Below, piece by piece: positions 10,407 through 49,331 of a DNA stretch of 64,000 nucleotides. This stretch comes from Natrinema pellirubrum DSM 15624 (GTDB taxonomy: Archaea; Halobacteriota; Halobacteria; Halobacteriales; Natrialbaceae). The stretch lies in assembly GCF_000230735.2 (NCBI RefSeq), contig NC_019962.1, positions 1,302,001 to 1,366,000 of the forward strand. The letters are read 5' to 3'. Made by a program: the position numbers and the translations under genes. Each line of letters opens with the position of its first letter. Positions within the stretch are counted from its first letter, which is position 1. The notes under the pieces are model-generated. The model was not told the origin of the DNA, made no database searches, and worked only from the letters and a program-made list of their open reading frames with translations.

Positions 10407-12698
10407 TTACGCGCCGACGAGTGCGGGTTCTTCGTCGGTGTCGTTCTCGAGACCGTCGTCGGTCCCGTTGTCCGCAGTTTCGTTGTCGGCGGTGTCGTTC
10501 TCGAGGCCGTCGTCGCCGTCCTCGAGTTCGGTGTCGTCAGTCTCGGTGTCGTCGGTCGCCTCGGTCAGTTCGAGGGTCGCGACTTCACCGGTCTGGTCGG
10601 CCAGGATCATGTGGATGTAATCGCCGGCCGCGAGGTCGCTCGTGTCGACCTCGAACTCGACGTCGTCGCTCGTGTCGACCTCGAACTCGACGTCGTCGCT
10701 CTCGTCGCCCTCGAGCGTGACGTTCTGTTCGTCGACGAGGTCACCGTCGAGACGGAACTGTGCCGTCTCGGTGCGTTCCTCGTCGCTCGGGTTCTCGATC
10801 GTCGCCGTCACGGTAATCGTCTCACCGACTTCGGCGCTCGTGGGTGCATCGAGGTTGCTGACCTCGAAGGACTCCGCCGATTCCGTCTCGTTGTCTATCG
10901 GCTCCTCTTCGGTTTCGTTGTCGGTCGGCTCGTCCTCGATCGGCTCGAGGCCGTCGTCGGTTTCGTTGTCCTCGGTTTCGTTGTCCTCAGTCGGCTCGTC
11001 TTCGATCGGCTCGAGGCCGTCGTCAGTTTCGTTGTCCTCGGTTTCGTTGTCCTCAGTCGGCTCGTCCTCGATCGGCTCGAGGCCGTCGTCAGTTTCGTTG
11101 TCCTCGGTTTCGTTATCGACCGGTTCGTCCTCGATCGGCTCGAGGTCGTCGTCGGTTTCGTTGTCTTCAGTCGGTTCCTCTTCGACCGGTTCCTCGTCCT
11201 CAACCGGTTCGTCCTCGACGGGCTGTTCGTCCATGCCCTCGAGGTTGACGTATACGGTGGCCTCTTCGATGGTCACCTGGATCTGGTCACCATCGTCCTC
11301 GACGGCCCCGTCGTCACCGTTATCGACACCATCTGCAGCGTCGTCGGTGTCGGTTTCGGTGTCGTTGGTCTCGGTGTCGAGATCCTCGCCGGTTCCGTCA
11401 TCGTTCGAGGGGGCGTCGGAAGCGCTCTGGATCTCGATGTTCTCGACGTCGACGGTGACCGTCACCTGCTCGAAGGACAGATCGCCGTTACCGAGCAGTC
11501 CGGCGGCGTCCGCCATCGTCTCGTCGCCCGTTTCAGTTTCATCGTCGGCCATCCCGTCGTCGCTGTCGACTGCGCCGTCGTCAGTGGCCGTCTCGTTTCC
11601 GTCGACGGTCGCCCCGTCGTCGGCCTGCTCGTCTTCGTATCCGGCGTCCGTCTCGCCGTCCATCGCGAGGTCGTCACCGTTCTCGCTGACGATGACAGTG
11701 AGCTGTTCGATCACGACGTTGATCGTTAGCCCGTCATCCATCGCCGGTTCGTCGTCGACGACATCCTCGTCTTCGTCAGCCGGTTCCTCGTCAACGACCG
11801 TTTCGTTGTCCTCTTCGACTGGTTCCTCGTCAACGACTGTTTCGTTATCCTCTTCGGCCGGTTCTTCGTCAACGACTGTTTCGTTATCCTCTTCGGCCGG
11901 TTCTTCGTCAACGACCGTTTCGTTGTCCTCTTCGGCCGGTTCCTCGTCAACGACTGTTTCGTTGTCCTCCTCGACCGGTTCCTCGTCAACGATCGTTTCG
12001 TTGTCCTCTTCGGCCGGCTCCTCCGCAACGGGTTCCTCGTCGGCCGCACCGACCGACACCACTGCGTCGTCGGTCACCGGCTCGTCGGCGGCCGTGAGGT
12101 ACGGCCCGTCGGCCGCACCCTCACTCTCGACGAAATCGTATTCCTCGTTGTCGTTCGTATCGCGATGCGGCATCGCGATCAGGGTCTCGTCCTCCTCGAG
12201 CGGTTCGTCGAGGGTGACTTCGACCTGTTCGTGGGTCCCCGCCTCGAGATACGCGGAGGTGCCGATAACGCTCTCGAAGACGTTTCCGACCAGCAGGCTG
12301 CTGTCGTGGATCGTCACGAAGCCGCCGCTCGCGAGCGTGACGTTCTCGACCACGACCGTCTGCCCGTCGGTCTCCTGGTCTTCGAACGTCACGTACGCGG
12401 ACTGTTGGCCGGCCGCGTCTTCCTCGAGGCCGGTTTCGTTGTCCGCCATCTCTCCATCGTCGTCATCGACCGCCATGTCGTCTTCGTCGGCAACTGTGTC
12501 GTCTGTCGTTGATTCGTCGACGTTCGTCTCGTTCGCCGAGTCGTATTCGCCGTCGCTGGCAGTGTCACCCGAATCGACGGCCCCAGAGCCCGAAGCTGCT
12601 GTGACCATCGCCCCGCCGGAACAAACTACCATCAGCGCGGTGAATACGACCAGTACCTGTTTGCGTGCGTTCATGGTTGCCGTAATGGCATCCGTCAC
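10407..12698 (-). CDS. Secreted acidic DUF7282 protein with two tandem-repeat arrays
   Basis: The protein is about 763 residues with a signal-peptide-like N-terminus (QVLVVFTALMVVCSGGAMVTA). If translation starts at the ATG at 12674 (MNARKQ) it is eight residues shorter. In order it has an acidic linker, a DUF7282 domain (about residues 95-215, QSAYVTFEDQ to VTDDAVV), a 13-residue repeat array, an acidic middle, a 22-residue repeat array, a CARDB-like domain (SFEVSNLDAPTSAEVGETIT onward), and an acidic end. Many NET/NGT sites could be N-glycosylated. No PGF-CTERM or sortase-like tail is visible, so how it stays at the surface is unclear. A winged-helix gene lies 131 bases upstream on the same strand. 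Confidence 0.85.
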   Translation of the reverse strand: MTDAITATMNARKQVLVVFTALMVVCSGGAMVTAASGSGAVDSGDTASDGEYDSANETNVDESTTDDTVADEDDMAVDDDDGEMADNETGLEEDAAGQQSAYVTFEDQETDGQTVVVENVTLASGGFVTIHDSSLLVGNVFESVIGTSAYLEAGTHEQVEVTLDEPLEEDETLIAMPHRDTNDNEEYDFVESEGAADGPYLTAADEPVTDDAVVSVGAADEEPVAEEPAEEDNETIVDEEPVEEDNETVVDEEPAEEDNETVVDEEPAEEDNETVVDEEPAEEDNETVVDEEPVEEDNETVVDEEPADEDEDVVDDEPAMDDGLTINVVIEQLTVIVSENGDDLAMDGETDAGYEDEQADDGATVDGNETATDDGAVDSDDGMADDETETGDETMADAAGLLGNGDLSFEQVTVTVDVENIEIQSASDAPSNDDGTGEDLDTETNDTETDTDDAADGVDNGDDGAVEDDGDQIQVTIEEATVYVNLEGMDEQPVEDEPVEDEEPVEEEPTEDNETDDDLEPIEDEPVDNETEDNETDDGLEPIEDEPTEDNETEDNETDDGLEPIEDEPTEDNETEDNETDDGLEPIEDEPTDNETEEEPIDNETESAESFEVSNLDAPTSAEVGETITVTATIENPSDEERTETAQFRLDGDLVDEQNVTLEGDESDDVEFEVDTSDDVEFEVDTSDLAAGDYIHMILADQTGEVATLELTEATDDTETDDTELEDGDDGLENDTADNETADNGTDDGLENDTDEEPALVGA
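10641..10700 (-). repeat. Exact 30-base tandem duplication inside the DUF7282 gene
   Basis: Bases 10641-10670 and 10671-10700 are identical and duplicate the ten residues DDVEFEVDTS in frame within the CARDB-like domain. Confidence 0.95.
10925..11180 (-). repeat. 66-base tandem repeats (22 residues) in the DUF7282 gene
   Basis: Units begin at 10925, 10991 and 11057, 66 bases apart, with a shortened unit from about 11120. They encode variants of EDNETDDGLEPIEDEPTEDN. All keep frame. Differences are mostly synonymous or conservative, so the array is under protein-level selection or recently expanded. Confidence 0.9.
11782..12015 (-). repeat. Six 39-base tandem repeats (13 residues) in the DUF7282 gene
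   Basis: Six consecutive 39-base units, with a decayed seventh after 12015, encode EPAEEDNETVVDE with A/V and I/V variation. Each carries one NET glycosylation sequon. Number of units could vary between strains by slippage. Confidence 0.95.
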
Positions 12699-35278: not shown

Positions 35279-36403
35279 TCAGCCGGAATCGCTAGACTCC
35301 TCGCCCTCGACCGGCTCGGCATCGACGACCAGCGGCTCCTCCGGTGGGACGGCGATCGATTGCTCTAACACCGAGGCCCGTAGCGTCGGCTTCGAGGCCG
35401 TCGCCTCCTGTCGGTAGTCGTCGTCGATCCGGTCCCCGCGGACCCCGCGTGGCGTCAAGTAGTCGCCGTCGACCTCGAGCCCAGCCGCCTCACAGAGCCG
35501 GCGTAGAACCGACCGCGCCCCCTCGGTGGTGATCGCCGGCGGCGCGATCGCACGCTCGCGGGCGAGTTCCCGGGCCGTCGAGGTCTCGAGCAGCGACTCG
35601 ATCTCTGCTTCGTCGTGGCCACGCTCGGCGAGGACCGTCCGCACGCGGCGGGCGATCGACGGGGCGTGGCCGGTCGGAAACAGCGGCCAGTCGTTCGCGG
35701 GCGGGTCCAGTACGATCCGATACCGACGCAGCGGCGTCCGCGCTCGGGCCGGGAGCGGGACGTCCTCGAGGCGCTGGGACTTGCCCAACACGCGGATCGT
35801 CCCCGTGTAGAAGTCCACGTCGTCCCACGTCGCGCCAACACGGCGGTCGTCGTCGGGGACCCGGAACAGCTCCGAGCCCCGGACCGTCGAGTGGGCGAGG
35901 ACCGCCACCATCGCGTACTCGCGCAGGCGGGTTCGGCGCTCGCTCGTCGACCGGGTCCCCGACTCGAGCGCTCGCTCGCGGACGTGGCGCTCGAGTTCGC
36001 GACGCTGGTCGGCCGTCCACGAGTCGCTTGTGGGCCGGGCGTCGGCGGTCGGCAGCGCTGCCTCGGCCCGGTCGGTCGCGGCGGGATTGGTCTCGAGGAT
36101 GCCGCCACGAACGCACCACGAGAGGAACGCCCGAACCACGGCGTAGTAGGTGCCGGCGGTCGAGGCGGTGTACTGGCCCCGTTCCGTCCGGCGGCGAAGC
36201 TCCGCGGCGTAGGCGCGCATGTGATCGACTGCAAGGGCGTCGATCGATCGGATCCCGTGGTCGGTCTCGAGCCACTCGGCCCACCGCCGCAGGATCGACT
36301 CGGCGTTGGAGGCGTAAGCACCCGCGCCGGAGCCATCGGGATCGCCCACCGCCTTGCGCTGGATGTAGGTGTCGACCGCATCGGTGATCGCGACGCCGGT
36401 CAC
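35279..36403 (-). CDS. Tyrosine recombinase-like protein lacking catalytic residues
   Basis: The 374-residue protein has a SAM-like core-binding domain (about residues 1-105, TGVAITDAVDTYIQRKA onward) and a C-terminal catalytic-like domain with R175 in STVRGSELF and a lysine (K209) in LGKSQRLEDVPLP. The HxxR box is replaced by TPRGVR (317-322). The only later tyrosine, Y330, is just eight residues on, and nothing resembling the nucleophile region follows. It is probably inactive for cleavage but may still bind DNA. The GTG at 36403 overlaps the stop of a 35-codon upstream frame (36400-36507). The upstream arginine-rich extension to 36559 is not used. Confidence 0.8.
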   Translation of the reverse strand: MTGVAITDAVDTYIQRKAVGDPDGSGAGAYASNAESILRRWAEWLETDHGIRSIDALAVDHMRAYAAELRRRTERGQYTASTAGTYYAVVRAFLSWCVRGGILETNPAATDRAEAALPTADARPTSDSWTADQRRELERHVRERALESGTRSTSERRTRLREYAMVAVLAHSTVRGSELFRVPDDDRRVGATWDDVDFYTGTIRVLGKSQRLEDVPLPARARTPLRRYRIVLDPPANDWPLFPTGHAPSIARRVRTVLAERGHDEAEIESLLETSTARELARERAIAPPAITTEGARSVLRRLCEAAGLEVDGDYLTPRGVRGDRIDDDYRQEATASKPTLRASVLEQSIAVPPEEPLVVDAEPVEGEESSDSG

Positions 36404-36507
36404 GGCGCGATCACCCGCCCGACGCCCGCGTCTGTCGCCCCGGATCGCCGTCGCCCAGTCCGATCCTGCCGGTCGGCACGACTCTCGAGGGTGACGCCAG
36501 TGGTCAT

Positions 36508-36713: not shown

Positions 36714-36814
36714 ATGACGCGGTCGATCACCGTACGAATGCGTCAGTCACTCCGAATCGTACGAATTGAGCGGCGGCGCGCCCGACGACGGCTCGGTCGA
36801 TCGTCGGCGTGGCG
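36659..36814 (+). repeat. Homologous segment 1a (pairs with 42869-43024)
   Basis: This segment aligns without gaps to 42869-43024 from the CTCGACAT to GGCGTGGCG. In the coding part about four of five bases agree by eye (19 differences in 101), and the promoter part also aligns. Confidence 0.85.
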
Positions 36815-36926
36815 CTCGTTTCGGCTGCCCATCGGTACCGACACGCCCGCCGCCCTCACTTGGGCCGAACAGCGCTACGAGTCCGTCAAACAGGTCGCAG
36901 AACCCGTTTCACTCCCCGACGTCTAG
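36714..36926 (+). pseudogene. Remnant: N-terminus of the 42924 gene joined to a shared tail
   Basis: A 70-residue reading frame begins MTRSITVRMRQSLRIVRIER, matching the first 34 residues of the membrane protein at 42924 (MTRPITARIRQPLRIARVER). It then jumps to TWAEQRYESVKQVAEPVSLP, a tail found again at 45178. The parts between, about 2 kb at the other locus, are missing. It is best read as a deletion-scarred copy, though the in-frame fusion could still be translated. It has no transmembrane segment. Confidence 0.65.
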
Positions 36927-37119: not shown

Positions 37120-37275
37120 ATGGTTGGAAACGAAACATCGATGCGGAGTGATGGCCACGGTGGCCGTGACGTATCGACACCGGCGACGGCCCGGTCGTTC
37201 CGCGGCGGGAGGCGGTGTCGACGGCGTCGCCCGAACGACAACTCCCGAACCCGAGGTTCGGTGAGGGGACACTGA
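37120..37275 (+). CDS. Possible 51-residue leader peptide
   Basis: An ATG at 37120, close to the predicted transcription start, opens a 51-residue frame beginning MVGNETSMRSDGHGGRDVST. It ends exactly in TGATG over the importer binding-protein start. The arginine-rich second half is unlike haloarchaeal proteins. A coupling leader or chance are both possible. Confidence 0.25.
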   Translation: MVGNETSMRSDGHGGRDVSTPATARSFRGGRRCRRRRPNDNSRTRGSVRGH

Positions 37276-38819
37276 TGGACGAGTCACGTCGACGGGTACT
37301 CGCCGGCATCGCCGGTGGGGGACTCGCCTCTCTTGCCGGGTGTGCAACCGGCGACACGGCCGACGAGACCGCATTTACGATCGGGCTGGCGGCGGATCCG
37401 ACCGACACCAGTCGATACGACAACTGGGGCGGCATGGCTCCCTATTGGACACGCGTCATCGAGCCGCTGGTCTGGGGCACTGACGATATGCAACCGAAAC
37501 CGTGGCTCGCGACCGACTGGACCGCCACCGACGACACCACCTGGGAGTTCGAACTCCGCAAGGGCGTCCGCTTTCACAACGGTGCGGAACTGACTGCCGA
37601 CGACGTCGTCTACACCTTCGAGGAGAACATCCTCTCCGAGCGCGGCGACTTCGTCTACGGGTGGCTCCACCTCGAACCGGGCAGCGTCACGAAACGCGAC
37701 GAATACACCGTCGCGTTCGAGACGACGGACCCGTTCCCCGGCTTCCCCGGCACGATCGCCCACAACATGATCGACATCCAGCCGCCCGCAGCCGATCGGC
37801 AGGCGGGCGAGATCATCGGTACCGGACCGTTTACCCTCGAGGAAATCCGGCGCGGGCAGTACGTCCGCGTCGAACGGTTCGCGGACTACTGGGGCGGCAA
37901 ACCGGCCCCGACGGAACTCACGTTCCGGGCGGCCGAAGACGAGACGACGCGGACCGATCTCCTCGAGAGCGGCGAGGTCGATCTGATCTATATGCCGGCC
38001 AAAAGTCGCCTCTCATCGTTTCGCGATCGCGACGACGTTCGCGTCGAATCCCAGCAGTCCGCGGGGGCGGTTTCGGTCTGGCTCAACATCTATCGCGACC
38101 CGACCGACGACCTGGCCCTGCGGCGCGCGCTCAACTACGCGGTCTCCCAGACGGAACTCGTCGAGACGGTACTCGAGGGGGTCGGCGAGCCGGCCCGCGG
38201 CCCGATATCGACGGTCATCGACTGGGTCGACGAGGACGAACTGCCGACCTACGAACGCGATCGGGACACCGCGCGTGACCTCGTCGATCAGTCGGCCTAC
38301 GACGGCTCGGAACTGACCTGTCTCGTGGACACCGATATGGACGACGGGAGGACGATCGGACAAGTTCTCCAGTCGTCGTTCAAGGAAATCGGCGTCGATG
38401 TCAGTCTCGAAGTCCGCGAGCGCGCAGCAATAAACGACCTGACGGACCGCGGCGAGTTCCACCTTCTGGTCGGGAGTACGGGATCGAACAGCCCCGGCGC
38501 GGACTATCTCATGTGGGAGAACTTCCACACGATGGGTGTCGACAACAAGAACCGCTACGAGGCCGACGGGACCGGGCTGTACAACCTCGGCGGCAAGGTC
38601 GATGACCTCATCGAGACCGGCTATCAGGCGCGTGACCCGGCCGCGAAACGCGACGCCTACATCGAGGCACAGCGGAAAATCATGGCGGCGGCCGTCGTCG
38701 TCCCGCTGTTCTACCAGGAGTACGTCGTCGCCGCCGACGCCGCGCTCGACGGTCTCGAACTCCATCCGATCGAGAAGTTCGCCGAGTGGAGCGACCTGAC
38801 GCGAACGACCTCACGATGA
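37275..38819 (+). CDS. ABC transporter substrate-binding lipoprotein, family 5
   Basis: The 514-residue protein binds a peptide, nickel complex or similar solute outside the cell. It has a twin-arginine lipoprotein signal (SRRRVLAGIAGGG, lipobox LAGC, C23). The family-5 fold follows: PYWTRVIEPLVWGTDDMQPK, LRKGVRFHNGAELTADDVVY, IIGTGPFTLEEIRRGQYVRV and RRALNYAVSQTELVETVLEG. Similarity in tone to NikA and DppA does not settle the ligand. A GAGGGG site lies about nine bases before the ATG. Overlaps (ATGA, GTGA) and an eight-base gap link it to the permease and ATPase genes in one operon. Confidence 0.93.
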   Translation: MDESRRRVLAGIAGGGLASLAGCATGDTADETAFTIGLAADPTDTSRYDNWGGMAPYWTRVIEPLVWGTDDMQPKPWLATDWTATDDTTWEFELRKGVRFHNGAELTADDVVYTFEENILSERGDFVYGWLHLEPGSVTKRDEYTVAFETTDPFPGFPGTIAHNMIDIQPPAADRQAGEIIGTGPFTLEEIRRGQYVRVERFADYWGGKPAPTELTFRAAEDETTRTDLLESGEVDLIYMPAKSRLSSFRDRDDVRVESQQSAGAVSVWLNIYRDPTDDLALRRALNYAVSQTELVETVLEGVGEPARGPISTVIDWVDEDELPTYERDRDTARDLVDQSAYDGSELTCLVDTDMDDGRTIGQVLQSSFKEIGVDVSLEVRERAAINDLTDRGEFHLLVGSTGSNSPGADYLMWENFHTMGVDNKNRYEADGTGLYNLGGKVDDLIETGYQARDPAAKRDAYIEAQRKIMAAAVVVPLFYQEYVVAADAALDGLELHPIEKFAEWSDLTRTTSR

Positions 38820-39766
38820 CTACCTACGATTACCTCGCGTCCCGACTCACGACGTCGCTTGCCGTTACGGTCGGTGTCTCGCTTGTCACGTACGGGCTGA
38901 TATTTCTCACGCCCGGCGAGCCGGCCGAGATCATTCTCTCCCAGCAGCTCGGCCGCCAGCCCTCTGCGGCCGAAATCGAGGCGTTTCGGGCGGAAAACGG
39001 CCTGAACGAGCCGGTCCCGGTCCAGTACCTGAACTGGCTGCTGGACGTCTGCCGGGGCGATCTCGGCACGTCGTACTACAGCGACACGCCGGTCTCGACG
39101 CTGATCGTGGAGGCGCTACCGGTGACACTCGAGTTGGCCCTTGCCGCAATGGTCGTCGCGCTCGCGATTTCGATCCCCGCTGGCGTCGCCAGCGCCGTCC
39201 ACCAAGGCTCCTCGATCGACTATGCAAGCCAACTGGGCGCGCTACTCGGCGTTTCGATGCCGAACTTCTGGCTCGCGTACCTGCTGATCCTGCTGTTCCC
39301 GCTGACGCTCGGCGTCTTCCCGGTCGCCGGTGCCGGCAGCGTCGGCCACCTCGTGTTGCCAGCGATCACACTGGGTACCGGCATGGCTGCCGTCGTCACG
39401 CGACTCGTCCGAAGTTCCATGCTCGAGGTCCTCGACGAAGCGTACGTCGATACCGCCCGCTCGACGGGACTCCGTGAGCGGATCGTCGTCTACAAACACG
39501 CGCTGCGAAACGCGCTCGTCCCGGTCGTAACGGTTCTCGGCCTCCAGTTGGGGACATTGCTGAACGGCGCAGTCGTCGTCGAGATAATCTTCCAGCGGCC
39601 GGGGCTTGGTACGTTGCTCGTCGATGCGGTGTTCGAACGCAACTACCCGGTCGTACAGGGGGTCACCCTCGTTACCGCGGTCGTCTTCGTCGTAACGAAC
39701 CTGGTCGTCGATCTCACGTACCGCTATCTCGATCCCCGCGTCCGGCTCGGGGGTGAGACGGCGTGA
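38816..39766 (+). CDS. ABC transporter permease, DppB/NikB type
   Basis: The 316-residue protein has six transmembrane helices. It begins TTYDYLASRLTTSLAVTVGV, with the family segment GEPAEIILSQQLGRQPSAAE and GDLGTSYYSDTPVSTLI in the first loop. The EAA-like loop for ATPase contact is YVDTARSTGLRERIVVYKHA, followed by LRNALVPVVTVLGLQLGTLL. The start overlaps the binding-protein stop as ATGA. Confidence 0.95.
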   Translation: MTTYDYLASRLTTSLAVTVGVSLVTYGLIFLTPGEPAEIILSQQLGRQPSAAEIEAFRAENGLNEPVPVQYLNWLLDVCRGDLGTSYYSDTPVSTLIVEALPVTLELALAAMVVALAISIPAGVASAVHQGSSIDYASQLGALLGVSMPNFWLAYLLILLFPLTLGVFPVAGAGSVGHLVLPAITLGTGMAAVVTRLVRSSMLEVLDEAYVDTARSTGLRERIVVYKHALRNALVPVVTVLGLQLGTLLNGAVVVEIIFQRPGLGTLLVDAVFERNYPVVQGVTLVTAVVFVVTNLVVDLTYRYLDPRVRLGGETA

Positions 39767-40671
39767 TCGGCTGTTTCGAGGCCCTCGTGGCGGGCCTTCG
39801 ACGACGGTACCGTGCGGTTCGGACGTCCCGGGCGACCGCGGCGTTTTTCGCGAACCCGCTCAACGTTGTCGGGCTGGTGATCGTCGCCACCCTGACGATC
39901 GCCGCCGTGTTCGGTCCCGTCGTCGCACCCACCGACCCGTCGAGTCAGGAACTCGCGAATCGATTACAGCCACCGACACTGGCCCATCCGATGGGGACCG
40001 ATCAACTCGGACGGGACGTCTTCTCGCGACTCCTATACGGTGCCCGGCTCTCGCTCGGTATCGCCGTCGCCGTCACCGCGATAAGGCTCGTCCTCGGGAC
40101 GGCGATCGGCCTGCTCGCGGGCTATGCCGGCGGCCTGATCGACGAACTCCTGATGCGACTCGTCGACGTCCAACTCGCGTTCCCGGGGCTGGTACTCGCA
40201 CTCGTGGTCGCCGGCATTCTCGGCCCCAGCCTCCGAAACGTGATGCTCGCACTCGCGGTCGTCGGCTGGGCATCCTACGCCCGTCTCGTCCGCAGCAGTG
40301 TCCTCTCGACGAAAGAACGCGAGTTCGTCCAGGCGGCCCGGCTGATGGGCGTCTCCCGGCATCGCATCGCCATCCGCCATCTCCTCCCGAACACCATCGG
40401 CCCGATCATCGTTCTCGCGACAATGAACCTCGGAACGGTGATACTGGGAACGGCCGGTCTTTCGTTTATCGGCCTCGGCGCACAGCCACCGACGCCCGAA
40501 TGGGGAACGATGCTTTCGACCGGCCGCCACCACCTCCGGGGGGCGTGGTGGCTCGCGAACGCTCCGGGCGCGGCGATCATGCTCACCGTCCTTGGATTCA
40601 ACCTGCTCGGTGACGGGCTCCGTGACGTCCTCGATCCGAACCACGATACACCCCTCGAGAAACCGACGTGA
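39763..40671 (+). CDS. ABC transporter permease, DppC/NikC type
   Basis: The 302-residue protein has a cytoplasmic N-terminus and six helices. FGPVVAPTDPSSQELANRLQ and MGTDQLGRDVFSRLLYGARL are DppC markers. The ATPase-contact loop is FVQAARLMGVSRHRIAIRHL, then LPNTIGPIIVLATMNLGTVI. A GTG start overlaps the previous stop. Confidence 0.95.
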   Translation: MIGCFEALVAGLRRRYRAVRTSRATAAFFANPLNVVGLVIVATLTIAAVFGPVVAPTDPSSQELANRLQPPTLAHPMGTDQLGRDVFSRLLYGARLSLGIAVAVTAIRLVLGTAIGLLAGYAGGLIDELLMRLVDVQLAFPGLVLALVVAGILGPSLRNVMLALAVVGWASYARLVRSSVLSTKEREFVQAARLMGVSRHRIAIRHLLPNTIGPIIVLATMNLGTVILGTAGLSFIGLGAQPPTPEWGTMLSTGRHHLRGAWWLANAPGAAIMLTVLGFNLLGDGLRDVLDPNHDTPLEKPT

Positions 40672-40678
40672 TCACGAC

Positions 40679-42778
40679 ATGACTGGACAATCGACGGATT
40701 CCACGTTGCTTTCGATCGATAACCTCCACACGCAGTTTCAGACCCGCAATGGCCTCGTCCGCGCAGTTGAGGGCGTCTCGATGACCGTCGACCAGGGCGA
40801 AATCGTCGGCCTCGTCGGCGAGAGCGGGAGCGGCAAATCCGTGACCGCACGCTCGATCGTCGGCCTCCAGGACCCGGGCGAGATCGTCCGGGGATCGATC
40901 CACCTCGACGACGTGGCAGTGACCGATGCGACCGACCGACAGCTCCGCCGGCTCCGGGGAGACACCGTCTCGATGGTGTTTCAGGACCCGACTGAGACGC
41001 TGAACCCCGTTTTCGACGTCGGCGAGCAGATCGCCGAATCGATCAAGGTCCACGAGGAACCCGGTCCCCAGCGCCTGCTCGAGTACCTCCATCTCCCGCC
41101 GTTTAGCAGCCGGTCGGAGTGGCGCGAGTACCGCGAACGGGCGATCGACCTCATGGAACAGGTCGGAATCGCCAGCCCGGCCGACCGGGTTGACGCATAC
41201 CCCCACGAACTCTCCGGCGGACAACGCCAGCGGGCCGGCGTCGCGATCGCGCTCGCATCCGACCCGGACCTGGTGATCGCCGACGAACCGACGACCGCGC
41301 TCGATGCGACCACGCAGGCACAACTCCTCGAGCGATTCCGTCAGTACAACGCCGAGCGCGGGACGGCGATCCTGCTGATCACGCACGATCTGGGCGTCGT
41401 CGCCGAAATCTGCGACCGCGTCGTCGTGATGTACGCCGGCGAGGTGATGGAAACCGGCCCGACCGAACGCATCCTCGAGGACCCTCGCCACCCGTACACG
41501 AAGGCGCTGCTCGAGTGTCTCCCCCAGCGCGTCGACCGGGAGAGCCGACTCCCGGCGATCGACGGATCGGTTCCCGAACCGACCGCCGATCGGGCAGGCT
41601 GTCCGTTTGCCCCCCGGTGTGAGTACGCGACTGCCGCCTGTCGGGACGGGGAGGTCCCGACCGTTGCTCTCGCTGACGGCCGCGGAAGCGTCACCTGCGT
41701 CGAGTCGAACTGGTCCGAGTCGGATACCCCGTCCTCGAGCAGGGGCGCTCCCGATGCCAGGTCCGAATCGACCGCGGCCGCCGAATCGGCCCCGGGCGAC
41801 TCGGACCGACCGTCCCCGATCGTCGAACTCGAGGGTGTTTCCAGACACTACTCGCTCGCGAGCGGGCTGATCGAACGCCTCCTCGGAGCCGACGACACGC
41901 TCCGGGCCGTCGACGGGGTCGACCTCGAGATCCGGGCCGGAGAAACGCTCGCACTCGTCGGCGAGAGCGGCTGTGGCAAGTCCACGCTTGCATCGCTGAT
42001 TACCGGCCTCGAGAGGCCGACGGCCGGGACGGTCCGAATCGACGGGACGCCAGTCGGCAGCGTCGCCGACCGCGATGCCGATACCCTCACCGACGTCGGC
42101 GTCGTCTTTCAGGACCCGCACTCGAGTCTCAACCCCCGACTGACGGTCGAGCAAACGATCGGTGAACCGCTACGGAGTGTCGGCTGGGACCGACCTCGTC
42201 GCAAGGACCGCGTCCGCGAGTTGCTCGATCGCGTCGGGCTCTCGGAACACCAGGCGACGAGCTACCCGCACGAACTCTCGGGCGGACAGATCCAGCGCGT
42301 CGCGATCGCGCGTGCGATCGCACTCGATCCCTCGCTCGTCGTCCTCGACGAGCCGGTCTCCGCGCTCGACGCCTCCGTTCAAGCCCGCCTCCTCAACGTC
42401 CTCGCGGACCTTCAAGCCGATCTCGGTCTCGCCTATCTGTTCATCTCTCACGACCTGACCGTCGTCGAACACGTCGCGGACCGCGTGGCAGTGATGTATC
42501 TCGGGGAACTGATGGAGGTCGGCCCCGCCGACAGGGTGTTCGATCGGCCGACACATCCGTACACGACGGCACTGCTCGAAGCGATTCCGTCGCTCGAACC
42601 CGGCGGTTCCATGGGGGCCTCGATCGCGGACGCGCCGCCGAACCCGACCGATCCACCGAGCGGGTGTGTCTTCCGGACCCGCTGTCCGATGGCCGAGCCG
42701 AAATGTGCGGCTACCGACCCTGAGCAGCACCAACTCGAGGCGGGCCGCTCGAAGTGTCACTTCGCCCGTGATCACTGA
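40679..42778 (+). CDS. Fused double ATPase of the peptide/nickel-type ABC importer
   Basis: The 699-residue protein joins DppD-like and DppF-like ATPases in one chain. The N-terminal ATPase has Walker A GESGSGKSV, signature ELSGGQRQR and Walker B LVIADEP. A Cys-rich oligopeptide-type tail follows (GCPFAPRCEYATAAC). A Ser/Asp-rich linker is at about residues 345-380. The C-terminal ATPase has Walker A GESGCGKST, signature ELSGGQIQR and Walker B LVVLDEP, with a second Cys-rich tail (GCVFRTRCPMAEPKC). Both sites look intact. ATG at 40679 follows the permease stop by seven bases. Confidence 0.95.
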   Translation: MTGQSTDSTLLSIDNLHTQFQTRNGLVRAVEGVSMTVDQGEIVGLVGESGSGKSVTARSIVGLQDPGEIVRGSIHLDDVAVTDATDRQLRRLRGDTVSMVFQDPTETLNPVFDVGEQIAESIKVHEEPGPQRLLEYLHLPPFSSRSEWREYRERAIDLMEQVGIASPADRVDAYPHELSGGQRQRAGVAIALASDPDLVIADEPTTALDATTQAQLLERFRQYNAERGTAILLITHDLGVVAEICDRVVVMYAGEVMETGPTERILEDPRHPYTKALLECLPQRVDRESRLPAIDGSVPEPTADRAGCPFAPRCEYATAACRDGEVPTVALADGRGSVTCVESNWSESDTPSSSRGAPDARSESTAAAESAPGDSDRPSPIVELEGVSRHYSLASGLIERLLGADDTLRAVDGVDLEIRAGETLALVGESGCGKSTLASLITGLERPTAGTVRIDGTPVGSVADRDADTLTDVGVVFQDPHSSLNPRLTVEQTIGEPLRSVGWDRPRRKDRVRELLDRVGLSEHQATSYPHELSGGQIQRVAIARAIALDPSLVVLDEPVSALDASVQARLLNVLADLQADLGLAYLFISHDLTVVEHVADRVAVMYLGELMEVGPADRVFDRPTHPYTTALLEAIPSLEPGGSMGASIADAPPNPTDPPSGCVFRTRCPMAEPKCAATDPEQHQLEAGRSKCHFARDH

Positions 42779-44692: not shown

Positions 44693-45174
44693 TTACCAGA
44701 ACTCTTCGATACCACACTTCGCCGCACAGCCGGCCGCGGTGCCACCGATACAGACCGCACACGGGGCACAGCTGATTCGAGTCGGATCGGCGACACACAC
44801 CTGACACGGGGTCGCACAGAAGGAGCCCCACGTGATACAGTTCACCCAGCAGTCGATCCCCGATCCCTGCGTGGTGAACCCGTCGGACTGTGCGTCCAGA
44901 CTGTAGACGGATTCCAGCTCGGTCCCGTCGATTTCGGCGATGAGGAGGGTATCGGTACCGTTCTCCAGCGTTGCGGAGACGAACACCCTGGTGACTCCCG
45001 ACTCGAGGTCGCGATGGGCGGCCGCATCGGCCGTATCGACCGTCGCGACGTTCCCGTTCTCGAGGGCTTGGGTCCAGTCGTCACTGGCTTCCAGCGTCTC
45101 CAGTGCGTCGGCCGTGACCGTATCGCCGAGAACGAGGTTTTCGACGAGGATATCGTCGTCTTCATGCCGCGCTC
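44693..45174 (-). pseudogene. 5'-truncated halocin C8-like antimicrobial peptide precursor
   Basis: The complement frame encodes about 160 residues ending in a Cys-rich peptide with ten cysteines (for example CWVNCITWGSFC, CAPCAVCIGGTAAGCAAKC). A propeptide-like region precedes it (GDTVTADALETLEASDDW, then SGVTRVFVSATLENGTDTLL). This matches the plan of halocin C8-type precursors: an immunity or propeptide part, then a small cysteine-rich bacteriocin. The frame has no ATG, no signal peptide, and only a GTG at 44986. Its 5' end stops at the start of the repeated segment at 45178, where a TGA follows. It is therefore a truncated gene. Confidence 0.6.
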
Positions 45175-45177
45175 TCC

Positions 45178-45270
45178 TGGGCCGAACAGCGCTACGAGTC
45201 CGTCAAACAGGCCGCGGCACCCGTTTCACTTCCCGACGGCACCCTCTAGACACCGTCCTGTCCTCGCGAG
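45178..45270 (+). repeat. Homologous segment 2b (pairs with 36861-36947)
   Basis: It encodes a tail SWAEQRYESVKQAAAPVSLP ending in a stop at about 45249. The gene that this tail belonged to is missing at both loci. Copies share the same abrupt left edge (TGGGCCGAAC). Confidence 0.8.
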
Positions 45271-45347: not shown

Positions 45348-45512
45348 TCAGGACGGATGCTGGTGGCGGATCTTCTCGGCCGTCATCCCCGGTACCGGCG
45401 TTCCACAGTCCTTGCACTTCCACTCGGGCGTCGGTGTTCCACGTTCCTTCCGCAGGTCCTGCTTGAACTCGAGGCGGGCACCACACGGACACCGGTAGGT
45501 CGTGCGGGTCAT
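45348..45512 (-). CDS. Small two-zinc-knuckle protein (54 residues)
   Basis: The complement from the ATG at 45512 encodes MTRTTYRCPCGARLEFKQDL and ends HQHPS. Two Cys pairs, CPCG and CKDCG, would bind one zinc ion, as in the many small haloarchaeal zinc-finger proteins. It is too short for usual length cut-offs. TTTATCG on the complement near 45533-45541 is a plausible TATA box 21-30 bases before the ATG. Function is unknown; it lies between the halocin remnant and the hydrolase. Confidence 0.7.
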   Translation of the reverse strand: MTRTTYRCPCGARLEFKQDLRKERGTPTPEWKCKDCGTPVPGMTAEKIRHQHPS

Positions 45513-45636: not shown

Positions 45637-46385
45637 ATGCCGGAATCACACAGGATCCCGATCGAAACGGCGGCCGCGACGGGGTCGGCCCCCGAGGTCG
45701 CCGCGGTGCATCACGAAACCGACTCGGACGACTGGATCGTGTTCTGTCACGGCCTCCGCAGCGACAAGTCCGGCAGCTACGAGGGCCGGTGTCGGCGGGC
45801 CGTCAGGGAGGGGTACAACGCCGTCCGGTTCGACTGCCGGGGCTGTGGCGAGTCCGACGGTACGTTCGTCGACGCCACCCTCGAGGCTCGACTGGCCGAT
45901 CTCCGTGCCGTGACCGAGTACTTCGACCCCGATTCGTACGTCCTCTTTGGCTCGAGTTTCGGCGGGAAAATGGCTTTCCACGCCGCCGCAACGGACGACC
46001 GGGTGCGGGCGGTCGCGACGCGTGCGCCCGTGACGACTACCGATACGTTCGACGAGTATCGGTCGACCATCGACCGCGACGGGGGGGGGTACAGTTCGAG
46101 ACCGGCGAACGGATCGACCGTCGGTTCCTCGAGGCGCTGGATCGCTACCCCTTCGACGATGTCGTCGAATCGCTCTCGGTCCCGGTCGCGATCTTCCACG
46201 GCGGTGCCGACGACGTCGTCGATCCCGCCGACAGTTTCGCGGCCGCTCGGCGACTCGAGACCGACGTCCTCCTCGAGCGGTTCGCCGGCGAAGGCCATCG
46301 CTTCTCGCGGGTGGCCGAGGACCGATTGCGGAAGCGATTGTTCGACTGGCTCGAGTGGGCCGGCGGCGAGAGCAGGCGGTGCTGA
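45637..46385 (+). pseudogene. Alpha/beta hydrolase with frameshift at a G9 run
   Basis: The product would be a serine hydrolase of about 249 residues. The first frame runs MPESHRIPIETAAATGS through IVFCHGLRSDKSGSYEG, FDCRGCGESDGTF and LFGSSFGGKMAFHAA (nucleophile serine in GSSFG). At 46081-46089 nine Gs break the frame. One extra G would restore VQFETGERIDRRFLEALDRY, VPVAIFHGGADDVVDPADSF (acid residue) and FAGEGHRFSRVAEDRL (catalytic histidine). A single-base loss or sequencing error are both possible. All triad residues are present across the two frames. Confidence 0.8.
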
Positions 46386-46793: not shown

Positions 46794-47540
46794 TCAGTTC
46801 ACGGAACAGAGAGAGAGATAGAGCAGGTATACTACCGTGAGGAGTGCCGGAAGCACTCCGCCCAGCCCGTAGATCGTACCGAGTCCGGCTGTTTTCAATG
46901 ACACCACGAGGTATTTCGTCCGGCGCGGGCCGAGAATAGCGGCGACAGTCGCGCGGTTCACTTCGTCGTCTCCGGTGATGTCGTTTACGTTCCGTGACTC
47001 GACACCTGCAAAGATGATGGCGAACCAGGCCATGAACACCGCCACCGTTGGCATCGTAACACGCAGTGTCGTACTGAGAAATATCGGGAGGAAAATCAGC
47101 ACTGCCCAGACCACTGCGACGTATGCAGAATCAATGACGGGATAGCGCTTCGAGTCGTCGTACGTATAGATGAATACAAGCGGTAATTGTGCGATGAGTA
47201 GTGCGAGTCCTGTCCGTGACGTCGATGCGAGGCCGATCGCAAAGAAGAGCGTGATGGCCTGATAGATGACGATACTGGCGAGGCTCGTATAGAGCAGTGG
47301 CGTATCGAAGCGTTCGACGAGCGCCGTCCTGTACGCGTTATTGATGCGGTCTTCCGGACTGATGTTGCGCCGGTCCTCGACGTAAATGACGTATACACCC
47401 AGTGCAGGGAGGAGTATCCCAACACCGATTGCTGAAAGTGGGATATCGAGCGTGATTGCGGTTATGCATACCATAAGCACAGCGCCGATGCAAAGCCAGA
47501 GATTCAACAGGAAGGGGGTATGAACGGTCCGTGTATCCAC
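46794..47540 (-). CDS. UbiA-like polytopic membrane protein
   Basis: The 248-residue protein has eight or nine hydrophobic helices. It shows two acid-rich loops at the positions of UbiA prenyltransferase motifs: one in VYVIYVEDRRNISPEDRINN and a second in RNVNDITGDDEVNRATVAAI, followed by LGPRRTKYLVV. The first motif departs from the usual NxxxDxxxD, so activity is uncertain. GTG at 47540 is preferred because an AATTTTAAC TATA-like stretch lies 28-36 bases before it; a GTG at 47636 gives an unlikely extension. GC is visibly lower than around it, like the kinase gene next to it. Confidence 0.7.
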   Translation of the reverse strand: MDTRTVHTPFLLNLWLCIGAVLMVCITAITLDIPLSAIGVGILLPALGVYVIYVEDRRNISPEDRINNAYRTALVERFDTPLLYTSLASIVIYQAITLFFAIGLASTSRTGLALLIAQLPLVFIYTYDDSKRYPVIDSAYVAVVWAVLIFLPIFLSTTLRVTMPTVAVFMAWFAIIFAGVESRNVNDITGDDEVNRATVAAILGPRRTKYLVVSLKTAGLGTIYGLGGVLPALLTVVYLLYLSLCSVN

Positions 47541-47636
47541 AGTACTCGTACCGAGGCACCATGCTGAGTTAAAATTTCCTGAGGGAATGGAATCAAAACG
47601 CCGTCGAATGGCTCCGTTCGAAGAACATGTGAACAC

Positions 47637-49331
47637 TTACCTATCCGAAACGGTCCGGGCTGGCTCGTCCTCGGACTCCGCAGGAACGGGAAGCGTAATA
47701 CGGATCTGTGCACCGCCGCTGTGCCGATTTCTACACTCGAAGACACCGCCCGCCTTTTCGGTCAGATACTTCACGATCCAGAGTCCGATCCCGCTAAGAT
47801 GACTCATTTGGGTCTCTCCTTCCTCTCTCAGTACCTCGAGTTCGGTTTCGGGGATGCCCTGGCCGTCGTCTTCGACGAATAACGTTACAGCGTCGTCCTC
47901 TATTTCGCTCCGAAGCACCACGGTAGCTTGATCGGGCTGGCCACGGTGTTCGACCGCGTTCTCGATTAGTTCCTGAACGGCGAAAGCGAATTTCGAATGA
48001 CACTGTACGTCGACATCGTGAATTGACACCTCGAGAACGGTATCCGAGGGAATTTCGGCCTTCGTTATACCGTCTTCGACCATTTCCGGGAGGCTAGCAA
48101 CCACGTTCCGGTCCTCACCGATCACACTATCGATAAGCCTAATTTTGTGGGCTTTATTCACGATGTCTTCCGAGGTATCCACAATATCTGTCAAATTATC
48201 GTCGCCCCCATCGGGAAGGTCCTTTTGGAGACTTTCCGATTGGCCGAGAATAATCTGCATCGACGTCCGGATATCGTGTCGAAAGAACCTGATTAGAACG
48301 TCTTTTATCCGCTCGAGTTCCTTCTCCCGCTGTTTGAGTTTCGTTATCTCTCCGACGACGATTAATTTCCCGGCTAACCCACGGCCGTACGCAAACGGTT
48401 GCGTCTGCGTCGTATAGTACTTGAGTTCGCCACGCTCCGTCCGAGAGAACGTCCCTTCGATTTCGCCTGTCGAAGAACGGGTCGGCAAGACGTCCTCGAT
48501 ACGTTCCCGGGAGTCCAAGTTCACATCGAACGTTTCAGCAGCGGTACTGTTCCCGTCGATGATTTCGTCTTCGGCGTTAAGAATGAAAACCGCTTCGTTG
48601 ATGGCATTGAACGCTTGGTTTCGAGCGACGGGTGAGAACTCCAGAAACCCATGCCGGTTCACGGAGTGAGCGAAGTAGATTCCCGCGAACCCGTACAGTA
48701 GCGCGGTTCCATCGTAGTATGGGGGAAGATAATCGACGATTGTGAGTGTCGTGGCGACCAGTACGCCGATGAAGAATATCGCGAGTGTCACCGCTCGTCT
48801 GCGATGCTTTCCGTCCGAGTGGATGGCTTCTGCGAAGAAAAGCGCAGTACTGGCGATCGTCATCAGATAGCCGTATCCCTGAACGATACTGACGAACAGG
48901 ATTCCTTGTGGGAACCCGACTTGAAGCACGCCGTCGGTACCAACAGTGTACTCGGCAGTGTAGACGATATCACCCGGATTGGTCCAACTAAGGGTGAAGA
49001 ATACGATCGCGGGCAGAAAAAAGAGGACGGCAACTCTGTTCGATAGCGGTTGTTTGTAGGCAAACTCATACGCGAACAGGAAGAACGCGCCACCTGTTGC
49101 AGTAACGACTGTCCAGAAGACGTTCGCGATCGCATACGTAAGGCCAGCGGCTGGGACTAGATTCATCGTCGCGTAAAGAAATGCCCAGGCGGCCGCCAGA
49201 ACCATGAAGAGAATAAACCATTGGATTGCCGGTTTCCGCCGCTTGTCGTACACCGTATAGGCGCTGTATAGTGCTGGGAGAGTACTCATGTATAACAAAA
49301 ATGTTATAGTTATATAATTTAGCATACTCAT
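47637..49331 (-). CDS. Seven-TM sensor histidine kinase with PAS domain
   Basis: The 564-residue protein has an N-terminal seven-helix sensor domain (about residues 5-220) and a PAS domain (about 225-330, AFNAINEAVFILNAEDEIID). A HisKA helix carries the phospho-acceptor histidine in IRFFRHDIRTSMQIILG, followed by a HATPase domain with the N box ELIENAVEH, VEDDGQGIPE and GIGLWIVKYL. No response regulator is adjacent, so it is an orphan kinase. The ATG at 49331 keeps the first helix; starts at 49325 or 49289 are possible. Lower GC suggests transfer. It may be coregulated with the UbiA-like gene behind it. Confidence 0.9.
   Translation of the reverse strand: MSMLNYITITFLLYMSTLPALYSAYTVYDKRRKPAIQWFILFMVLAAAWAFLYATMNLVPAAGLTYAIANVFWTVVTATGGAFFLFAYEFAYKQPLSNRVAVLFFLPAIVFFTLSWTNPGDIVYTAEYTVGTDGVLQVGFPQGILFVSIVQGYGYLMTIASTALFFAEAIHSDGKHRRRAVTLAIFFIGVLVATTLTIVDYLPPYYDGTALLYGFAGIYFAHSVNRHGFLEFSPVARNQAFNAINEAVFILNAEDEIIDGNSTAAETFDVNLDSRERIEDVLPTRSSTGEIEGTFSRTERGELKYYTTQTQPFAYGRGLAGKLIVVGEITKLKQREKELERIKDVLIRFFRHDIRTSMQIILGQSESLQKDLPDGGDDNLTDIVDTSEDIVNKAHKIRLIDSVIGEDRNVVASLPEMVEDGITKAEIPSDTVLEVSIHDVDVQCHSKFAFAVQELIENAVEHRGQPDQATVVLRSEIEDDAVTLFVEDDGQGIPETELEVLREEGETQMSHLSGIGLWIVKYLTEKAGGVFECRNRHSGGAQIRITLPVPAESEDEPARTVSDR

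Follow-up and report, generated by a model that had tools for sequence, protein, structure and literature searches.

In the window, by which we mean the whole 64,000-nucleotide stretch of Natrinema pellirubrum DSM 15624 analyzed here, two paralogous gene modules, A1 and A2, lie on either side of a dpp-like dipeptide/oligopeptide ABC operon (Table 1). A2 retains an intact ABC-2-like permease gene, the 3' part of a cysteine-rich precursor gene, and the tail of a regulator gene (regX); A1 has collapsed to a permease head joined to a second regX tail. Homologs were sought across the family (125 genomes) and the class (391 genomes). Among named relatives, the closest found was Natrinema thermotolerans DSM 11552, with flanks 95%–98% identical. 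A XerD-like recombinase gene lies at the left border; N. thermotolerans and G107, a genome from another genus of the family, likewise have it next to the module.

Table 1. Module genes, remnants, and border genes, with positions counted from the first nucleotide of the window.
Feature	Position	Strand	Evidence
XerD-like tyrosine recombinase, left border	35282..36484	-	99.5% amino acid identity in N. thermotolerans; 72% ortholog at the G107 module
Second permease head, 36 codons, left remnant of A1	36714..36821	+	72% amino acid identity to the start of the 42924 protein
regX tail, A1; an internal deletion fused it to the permease head	36831..36926	+	93% identical to N. thermotolerans regX 229-258
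dpp-like dipeptide/oligopeptide ABC operon, outside the module	37275..42778	+	96-98% identical to N. thermotolerans, there downstream of intact A1
ABC-2-like permease gene, A2, intact, 548 codons	42924..44570	+	Homologs beside precursors; dN/dS
3' remnant of the halocin-like precursor gene, A2	44693..45175	-	tblastn against the intact N. thermotolerans gene; open frame
Codons for the C-terminal 54-residue ten-cysteine peptide region	44696..44857	-	Sequence; family alignment
regX (FilR1-type regulator) 3' tail, A2, 27 codons and stop	45166..45249	+	85% identity to the N. thermotolerans regX C-terminus
Small zinc-ribbon-like protein, right border	45351..45512	-	Amino acid identity 100% in G075 (N. 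thermotolerans), 96% in G062, 73% in G107; same chromosomal site

The window has further features beyond the modules. At 45658–46385 (plus strand), an alpha/beta-hydrolase-like gene is frameshifted by a run of nine G (46081–46089), at a point where its N. thermotolerans counterpart stays in frame; the run could be a sequencing error, the mark of a pseudogene, or a slippery tract. Between 47000 and 50000 lies a low-GC island (52%–54% versus about 66%) that holds a multi-pass membrane protein (46794–47636) and a histidine-kinase-like protein (47637–49331). At 11709–12094, within a strongly T-skewed coding region, there is a tandem array of seven copies of a 39-nucleotide unit, with related repeats at 10456–11198.

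The first-pass annotation described the A2 remnant as a truncated cysteine-rich precursor whose 5' end, signal peptide, and start codon were missing at the edge of a repeated segment, and this description was borne out. On the minus strand, no stop interrupts the frame between 45202 and its end at 44693, and the product closes with ...IDCWVNCITWGSFCATPCQVCVADPTRISCAPCAVCIGGTAAGCAAKCGIEEFW. Ten cysteines fall within 54 amino acids, which has a chance probability of 2e-11 to 5e-6 at cysteine frequencies of 0.8%–3%. The remnant comprises about 160 codons including the stop and is 85% identical by tblastn to residues 109–268 of the intact N. thermotolerans precursor. Homology starts at residue 109 (window position 45175) and breaks off where the repeat (45166–45238) begins, so that the Tat signal, the start codon, and the first ~108 codons are gone. 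We found no ATG, GTG, or TTG in the remnant frame upstream of the GTG at 44986, and no in-frame start offered a signal peptide. The remnant therefore cannot make a signal peptide, and this precursor copy is dead as a secreted weapon in this strain.

The repeat at 45166–45238 is the coding tail of the plus-strand regulator, and its second copy, at 36831, is the regX tail of A1; the two tails account for the repeat that had been noticed. Alignment with the intact genes indicates that one deletion fused the A2 regX tail to the truncated precursor. At the right junction (45166), a short GCGCTCT-like stretch is common to both parents. The locus had been proposed to be decayed or hybrid. Decay fits what we see, and hybrid does not, as the junction joins two divergent genes of one module. 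Two other readings of the repeat were rejected. It is not a mobile element, since it consists of regX coding sequence, and the two tails are not phase-variable or recombination sites, since junction alignment shows that each adjoins a different deletion endpoint.

Full-length homologs of the precursor (~268–283 amino acids) were found in N. thermotolerans, N. altunense AJ2, Haloterrigena salina, Halorussus halobius, Halocatena pleomorpha, and two further genomes (G024 and G109), with more distant homologs in G261, G147, and a second Halocatena pleomorpha locus. An intact precursor (~268 amino acids) consists of a Tat signal, a pro-domain of ~180 amino acids, and a ten-cysteine C-terminus. In most intact homologs the N-terminus is a twin-arginine signal (such as RRKLLK or RRDILK), for which the TIGR01409 model scored just under its cut-off. 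The ten cysteines are invariant across six aligned family members. AlphaFold gave a plausible alpha/beta model of the pro-domain (pLDDT ~80 over roughly residues 90–200) and left the cysteine domain unmodeled (pLDDT <40). A Foldseek search with the pro-domain model returned no significant match. In VIA-align, the model gave weak matches to several BLIP-like/DUF2874 (PepSY-like) secreted proteins (Z 4.5–5.8 over 108–132 residues); such matches would be in keeping with an inhibitory pro-domain but are too weak to claim one. Pfam, NCBIfam, and PADLOC searches with the fragment and its homologs gave nothing informative, a sequence search of the PDB with the precursor gave only weak unrelated matches, and the viral contigs searched contained no relative. 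Separately, we note another Tat-signal protein (RRTVLQTLG...) in Halorussus halobius (locus L078, 6631–7440, minus strand), 3 kb from the precursor cluster, which is a possible second precursor.

Comparison across genomes shows that a complete module has four genes, encoding a FilR1-type HTH regulator, a divergently transcribed Tat precursor, an ABC-2-like permease, and its ATPase. Gene order varies. In N. thermotolerans it is xerD, permease, precursor (minus strand), regulator (plus strand), dpp operon, and zinc ribbon; in Halorussus halobius it is regulator (minus), precursor (plus), ATPase (minus), and permease (minus); and in Halocatena pleomorpha it is precursor, permease, ATPase, and regulator. 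Related clusters occur in G261 and at the second Halocatena pleomorpha locus. The first-pass annotation had proposed looking in other genomes for the full-length gene beside homologs of the permease, and such pairs were found, for example in N. thermotolerans, Halorussus, and Halocatena. Overall, eight sampled loci of this family, including those of N. thermotolerans, G062, G024, G026, G107, Halorussus, and Halocatena, have a permease homolog beside a precursor, whether intact or decayed. N. altunense AJ2 and G109 carry an intact precursor with no adjacent permease. The intact N. thermotolerans regX (261 amino acids), which is of the type with an HTH N-terminus, scores above the cut-offs for PF08350 (FilR1_middle, 66 bits) and PF25213 (49.5 bits); in the window only the tail is kept.

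An ATPase gene adjoins the permease in Halorussus, Halocatena, G107, and G261, and is absent beside the permease in the window, N. thermotolerans, G062, G024, and G026; it is missing in Natrinema and Haloterrigena. The corresponding chromosomal site in G107, flanked by mrp/xerD on one side and by the zinc-ribbon and hydrolase genes on the other, holds an intact permease and ATPase with a 46-amino-acid precursor remnant. Its retained ATPase suggests that the site once carried an ATPase gene in Natrinema too. The cluster ATPases are PF00005 proteins, and their best NCBIfam scores (DrrA, GldA, and lantibiotic protection) are all below cut-off. A candidate for an ATPase acting in trans, 62%–64% identical to the cluster ATPases, is encoded elsewhere in the N. 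pellirubrum genome (C1, ~607.1–607.8 kb), where it adjoins another permease of the superfamily.

The A2 permease is predicted by hydropathy to have ~12 transmembrane segments. It had no match by sequence to Pfam, NCBIfam, or PDB chains, and its AlphaFold model (mean pLDDT 40) was too poor for a fold search. The gene is intact in both the window and G062, where the precursor is reduced to ~160 and ~34–39 codons, respectively. Between these two genomes the permease has a dN/dS of 0.26, with 36.5 non-synonymous versus 55.5 synonymous differences and no stops, although the constraint measured in this way may partly predate the truncation. The permease had earlier been proposed as the exporter or immunity partner of the peptide. 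Its place as a conserved partner holds; the exporter role is less likely, given that a Tat signal already serves to export the precursor. Survival of the permease past precursor truncation fits self-protection better than export, which falls short of proof, and a permease lacking its ATPase may not work. In N. thermotolerans A29, module A1 shows a deletion like that of A2 in the window, with the 5' parts of precursor and regulator lost; this is weaker evidence because the assembly shows frameshifts. Half of the related permeases examined, counting ten unlabeled rows of the permease tree, have no recognized cysteine-rich precursor alongside, and the transporter may therefore serve a general function.

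The flanks and the permease group the genomes differently. Across the flanks, the window is closer to N. thermotolerans (96%–98% nucleotide identity) than to G062 (91%–94%), whereas its A2 permease is closer to that of G062 (94.4%, dS 0.123) than to that of N. thermotolerans (89.3%, dS 0.235). The A1 permease head of the window is 88% identical in nucleotides to N. thermotolerans A1 and 74% identical to the A2 of the window, A2 is 88% identical to G062 in this comparison, and N. thermotolerans holds A1 without A2. The simplest account of these comparisons starts from an ancestral pair, A1-dpp-A2; N. thermotolerans would then have lost A2 and G062 would have lost A1, with A1 collapsing in the window. 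A2 could instead have been replaced horizontally, but this explains the A1 head less simply.

The first-pass annotation had likened the fragment to halocin C8 precursors. The likeness holds in layout and gene setting and fails in sequence. As in halocin C8 (ProC8, TIGR04449), a Tat signal is followed by an N-terminal pro-region and a ten-cysteine C-terminal peptide, with a total length of ~270–285 amino acids. In halocin C8, immunity is conferred by the N-terminal part of the precursor. The cysteine spacing is 3-6-3-2-8-2-2-7-3 in the window family and 2-7-3-7-13-7-8-8-5 in halocin C8, the peptides are ~54 and 76 amino acids long, and the pro-domain and cysteine domain have no detectable homology to their halocin C8 counterparts. 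TIGR04449 (halocin_C8_dom, 24-bit threshold) matched neither the window frame nor four intact homologs, and a six-frame scan of the genome with this model found four other sites, the A2 site not among them. In hhalign comparisons based on shallow alignments, the cysteine domains aligned with 2% probability and the pro-domains with 0.3%, and the Tat signal alone aligned (87%). The search with halocin C8 models that had been suggested as a check thus counts against the family name and membership, and not against the broader idea of a halocin-like module.

Of 13 halocin C8 loci sampled, 7 have a related ABC-2-like permease nearby, some of them with an HTH regulator and one with an ATPase; the seven include one locus from N. 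pellirubrum itself and, in N. altunense, the locus of true halocin C8. A rough binomial estimate puts the chance of this linkage near 1e-12. The permeases linked to halocin C8 belong to the same superfamily as those of the window family and to a different branch; in the permease tree, a single branch separates the two groups. The TIGR04449 loci of N. pellirubrum itself are L096 (C1, ~3,771,600–3,772,500), L097, L098, and L099; one of them shares 60% identity with true halocin C8 and has a permease homolog at a distance of 1.7 kb, and one has an in-frame TAA in the scan. Another locus, L108 (G076, C26), combines a halocin C8-type precursor with permease and ATPase genes and part of a second permease (85% identical over the last 66 residues), which again suggests duplication and decay in such clusters.

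The modules also resemble other described systems. Drug and lantibiotic-protection transporters of the DrrAB/LanFEG/BcrAB types are similar in the ATPase models with which the complete clusters score best, in a polytopic permease partner, and in linkage to a peptide gene, but the ATPase scores here fall under the curated cut-offs, the 548-amino-acid permease matched none of the Pfam or NCBIfam families, and an ATPase is missing from the window copy. By description, the ABC transporters of archaeal dark-matter islands (arCOG00194 and partners) are similar in combining a multidrug-type ATPase with a strongly diverged permease in an operon of predicted resistance function; the main text of that report mentions neither halocins nor Natrinema (PMC4158269). 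HFX_0892/HmHapP is likewise, by description, a secreted haloarchaeal precursor that needs proteolysis for activity, but its activity resides in the N-terminus, which has two helices (PMC12893001).

We interpret the locus as a decayed pair of halocin-like modules flanking the dpp operon, in which the peptide is no longer secreted and the permease has been kept, probably for self-protection; we give this reading a probability of about 0.68. In an intact module, we infer that the precursor would leave the cell through Tat and be cut outside, releasing a disulfide-rich peptide that would inhibit relatives, and that the ABC transporter would shield the producer. In the window, collapse has reduced A1 to its permease head and regulator tail, and one deletion in A2 took the precursor promoter, the signal and first ~108 codons, and most of the regulator, with the ATPase likewise gone. 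The strain has thereby lost secretion of the peptide, and the permease may give, or may have given, protection against the peptide of neighbors, perhaps with an ATPase supplied in trans. Purifying selection on the permease is as expected if it protects in this way.

Other explanations deserve weight. The permease, with its ATPase, could be a dedicated exporter of the peptide, the window copy being a leftover heading to loss. The conserved linkage of permease, ATPase, and precursor would fit, as would a pump that looks non-functional in the window for want of an ATPase. Intact precursors have Tat signals, however, which make an ABC exporter unneeded, and halocin C8 is itself reported to leave by Tat, ProC8 being matured into HalI and halocin C8 (PMC11509114). 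Permease-ATPase pairs also occur without precursors, and the permease is intact and constrained in the window and G062 despite their truncated precursors, so we regard an exporter role as distinctly unlikely. The cysteine-rich protein could also be a small exported protein of non-antimicrobial function, such as signaling or metal binding, with the ABC transporter acting as an importer or general drug-resistance pump. Its closely spaced cysteine pairs (CxxC) could bind metal, the weak BLIP-like/DUF2874 resemblance of the modeled pro-domain could point the same way, the regulator is of a general haloarchaeal type, and antimicrobial activity in this family is so far a prediction. Against this stand the halocin C8-like layout, the same partner permease superfamily near halocin C8 loci, the patchy distribution, and the repeated loss, and we consider a non-antimicrobial function unlikely.

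Explanations that leave the A2 precursor undamaged, or make the shortened frame useful, fare worse. The truncation is seen in a single assembly of this strain and could be an assembly or sequencing artefact, but the genome (three contigs, 4.35 Mb, 99.9% complete) contains two different scars, each with a clean breakpoint relative to N. thermotolerans, and two other genomes carry differing truncations; an artefact is therefore highly improbable. The shortened frame might still be expressed to some benefit; a start at the GTG at 44986, for instance, would give a 97-amino-acid cytoplasmic decoy or immunity peptide. It has 156 codons without a stop and a dN/dS of 0.32 against N. thermotolerans, yet most of these substitutions can be older than the deletion, the promoter and native start are gone, and G062 keeps only ~34–39 codons, making a functional product very unlikely.

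More tentatively, and at somewhat less than even odds, the precursors may represent a separate, unnamed family of haloarchaeal cysteine-rich bacteriocins that has no sequence relationship to halocin C8 yet is encoded in the same kind of module, from which lineages repeatedly drop the weapon together with its regulator and keep an orphan self-protection permease. Neither the family nor the cluster is in any of the family libraries searched. A 2019 survey of archaeal antimicrobial peptides and toxins by Makarova et al. (mBio) reportedly expanded the halocin families and may already list parts of it. Few halocins are known at the gene level, and a second type of ten-cysteine, Tat-exported precursor, intact in at least four genera, offers concrete candidates for expression. 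The shared permease superfamily is a candidate for a second route of self-protection besides the HalI pro-region. Finally, two paralogs with reciprocal loss form a natural series of intact, truncated, and collapsed modules in which to ask whether immunity outlives the weapon.
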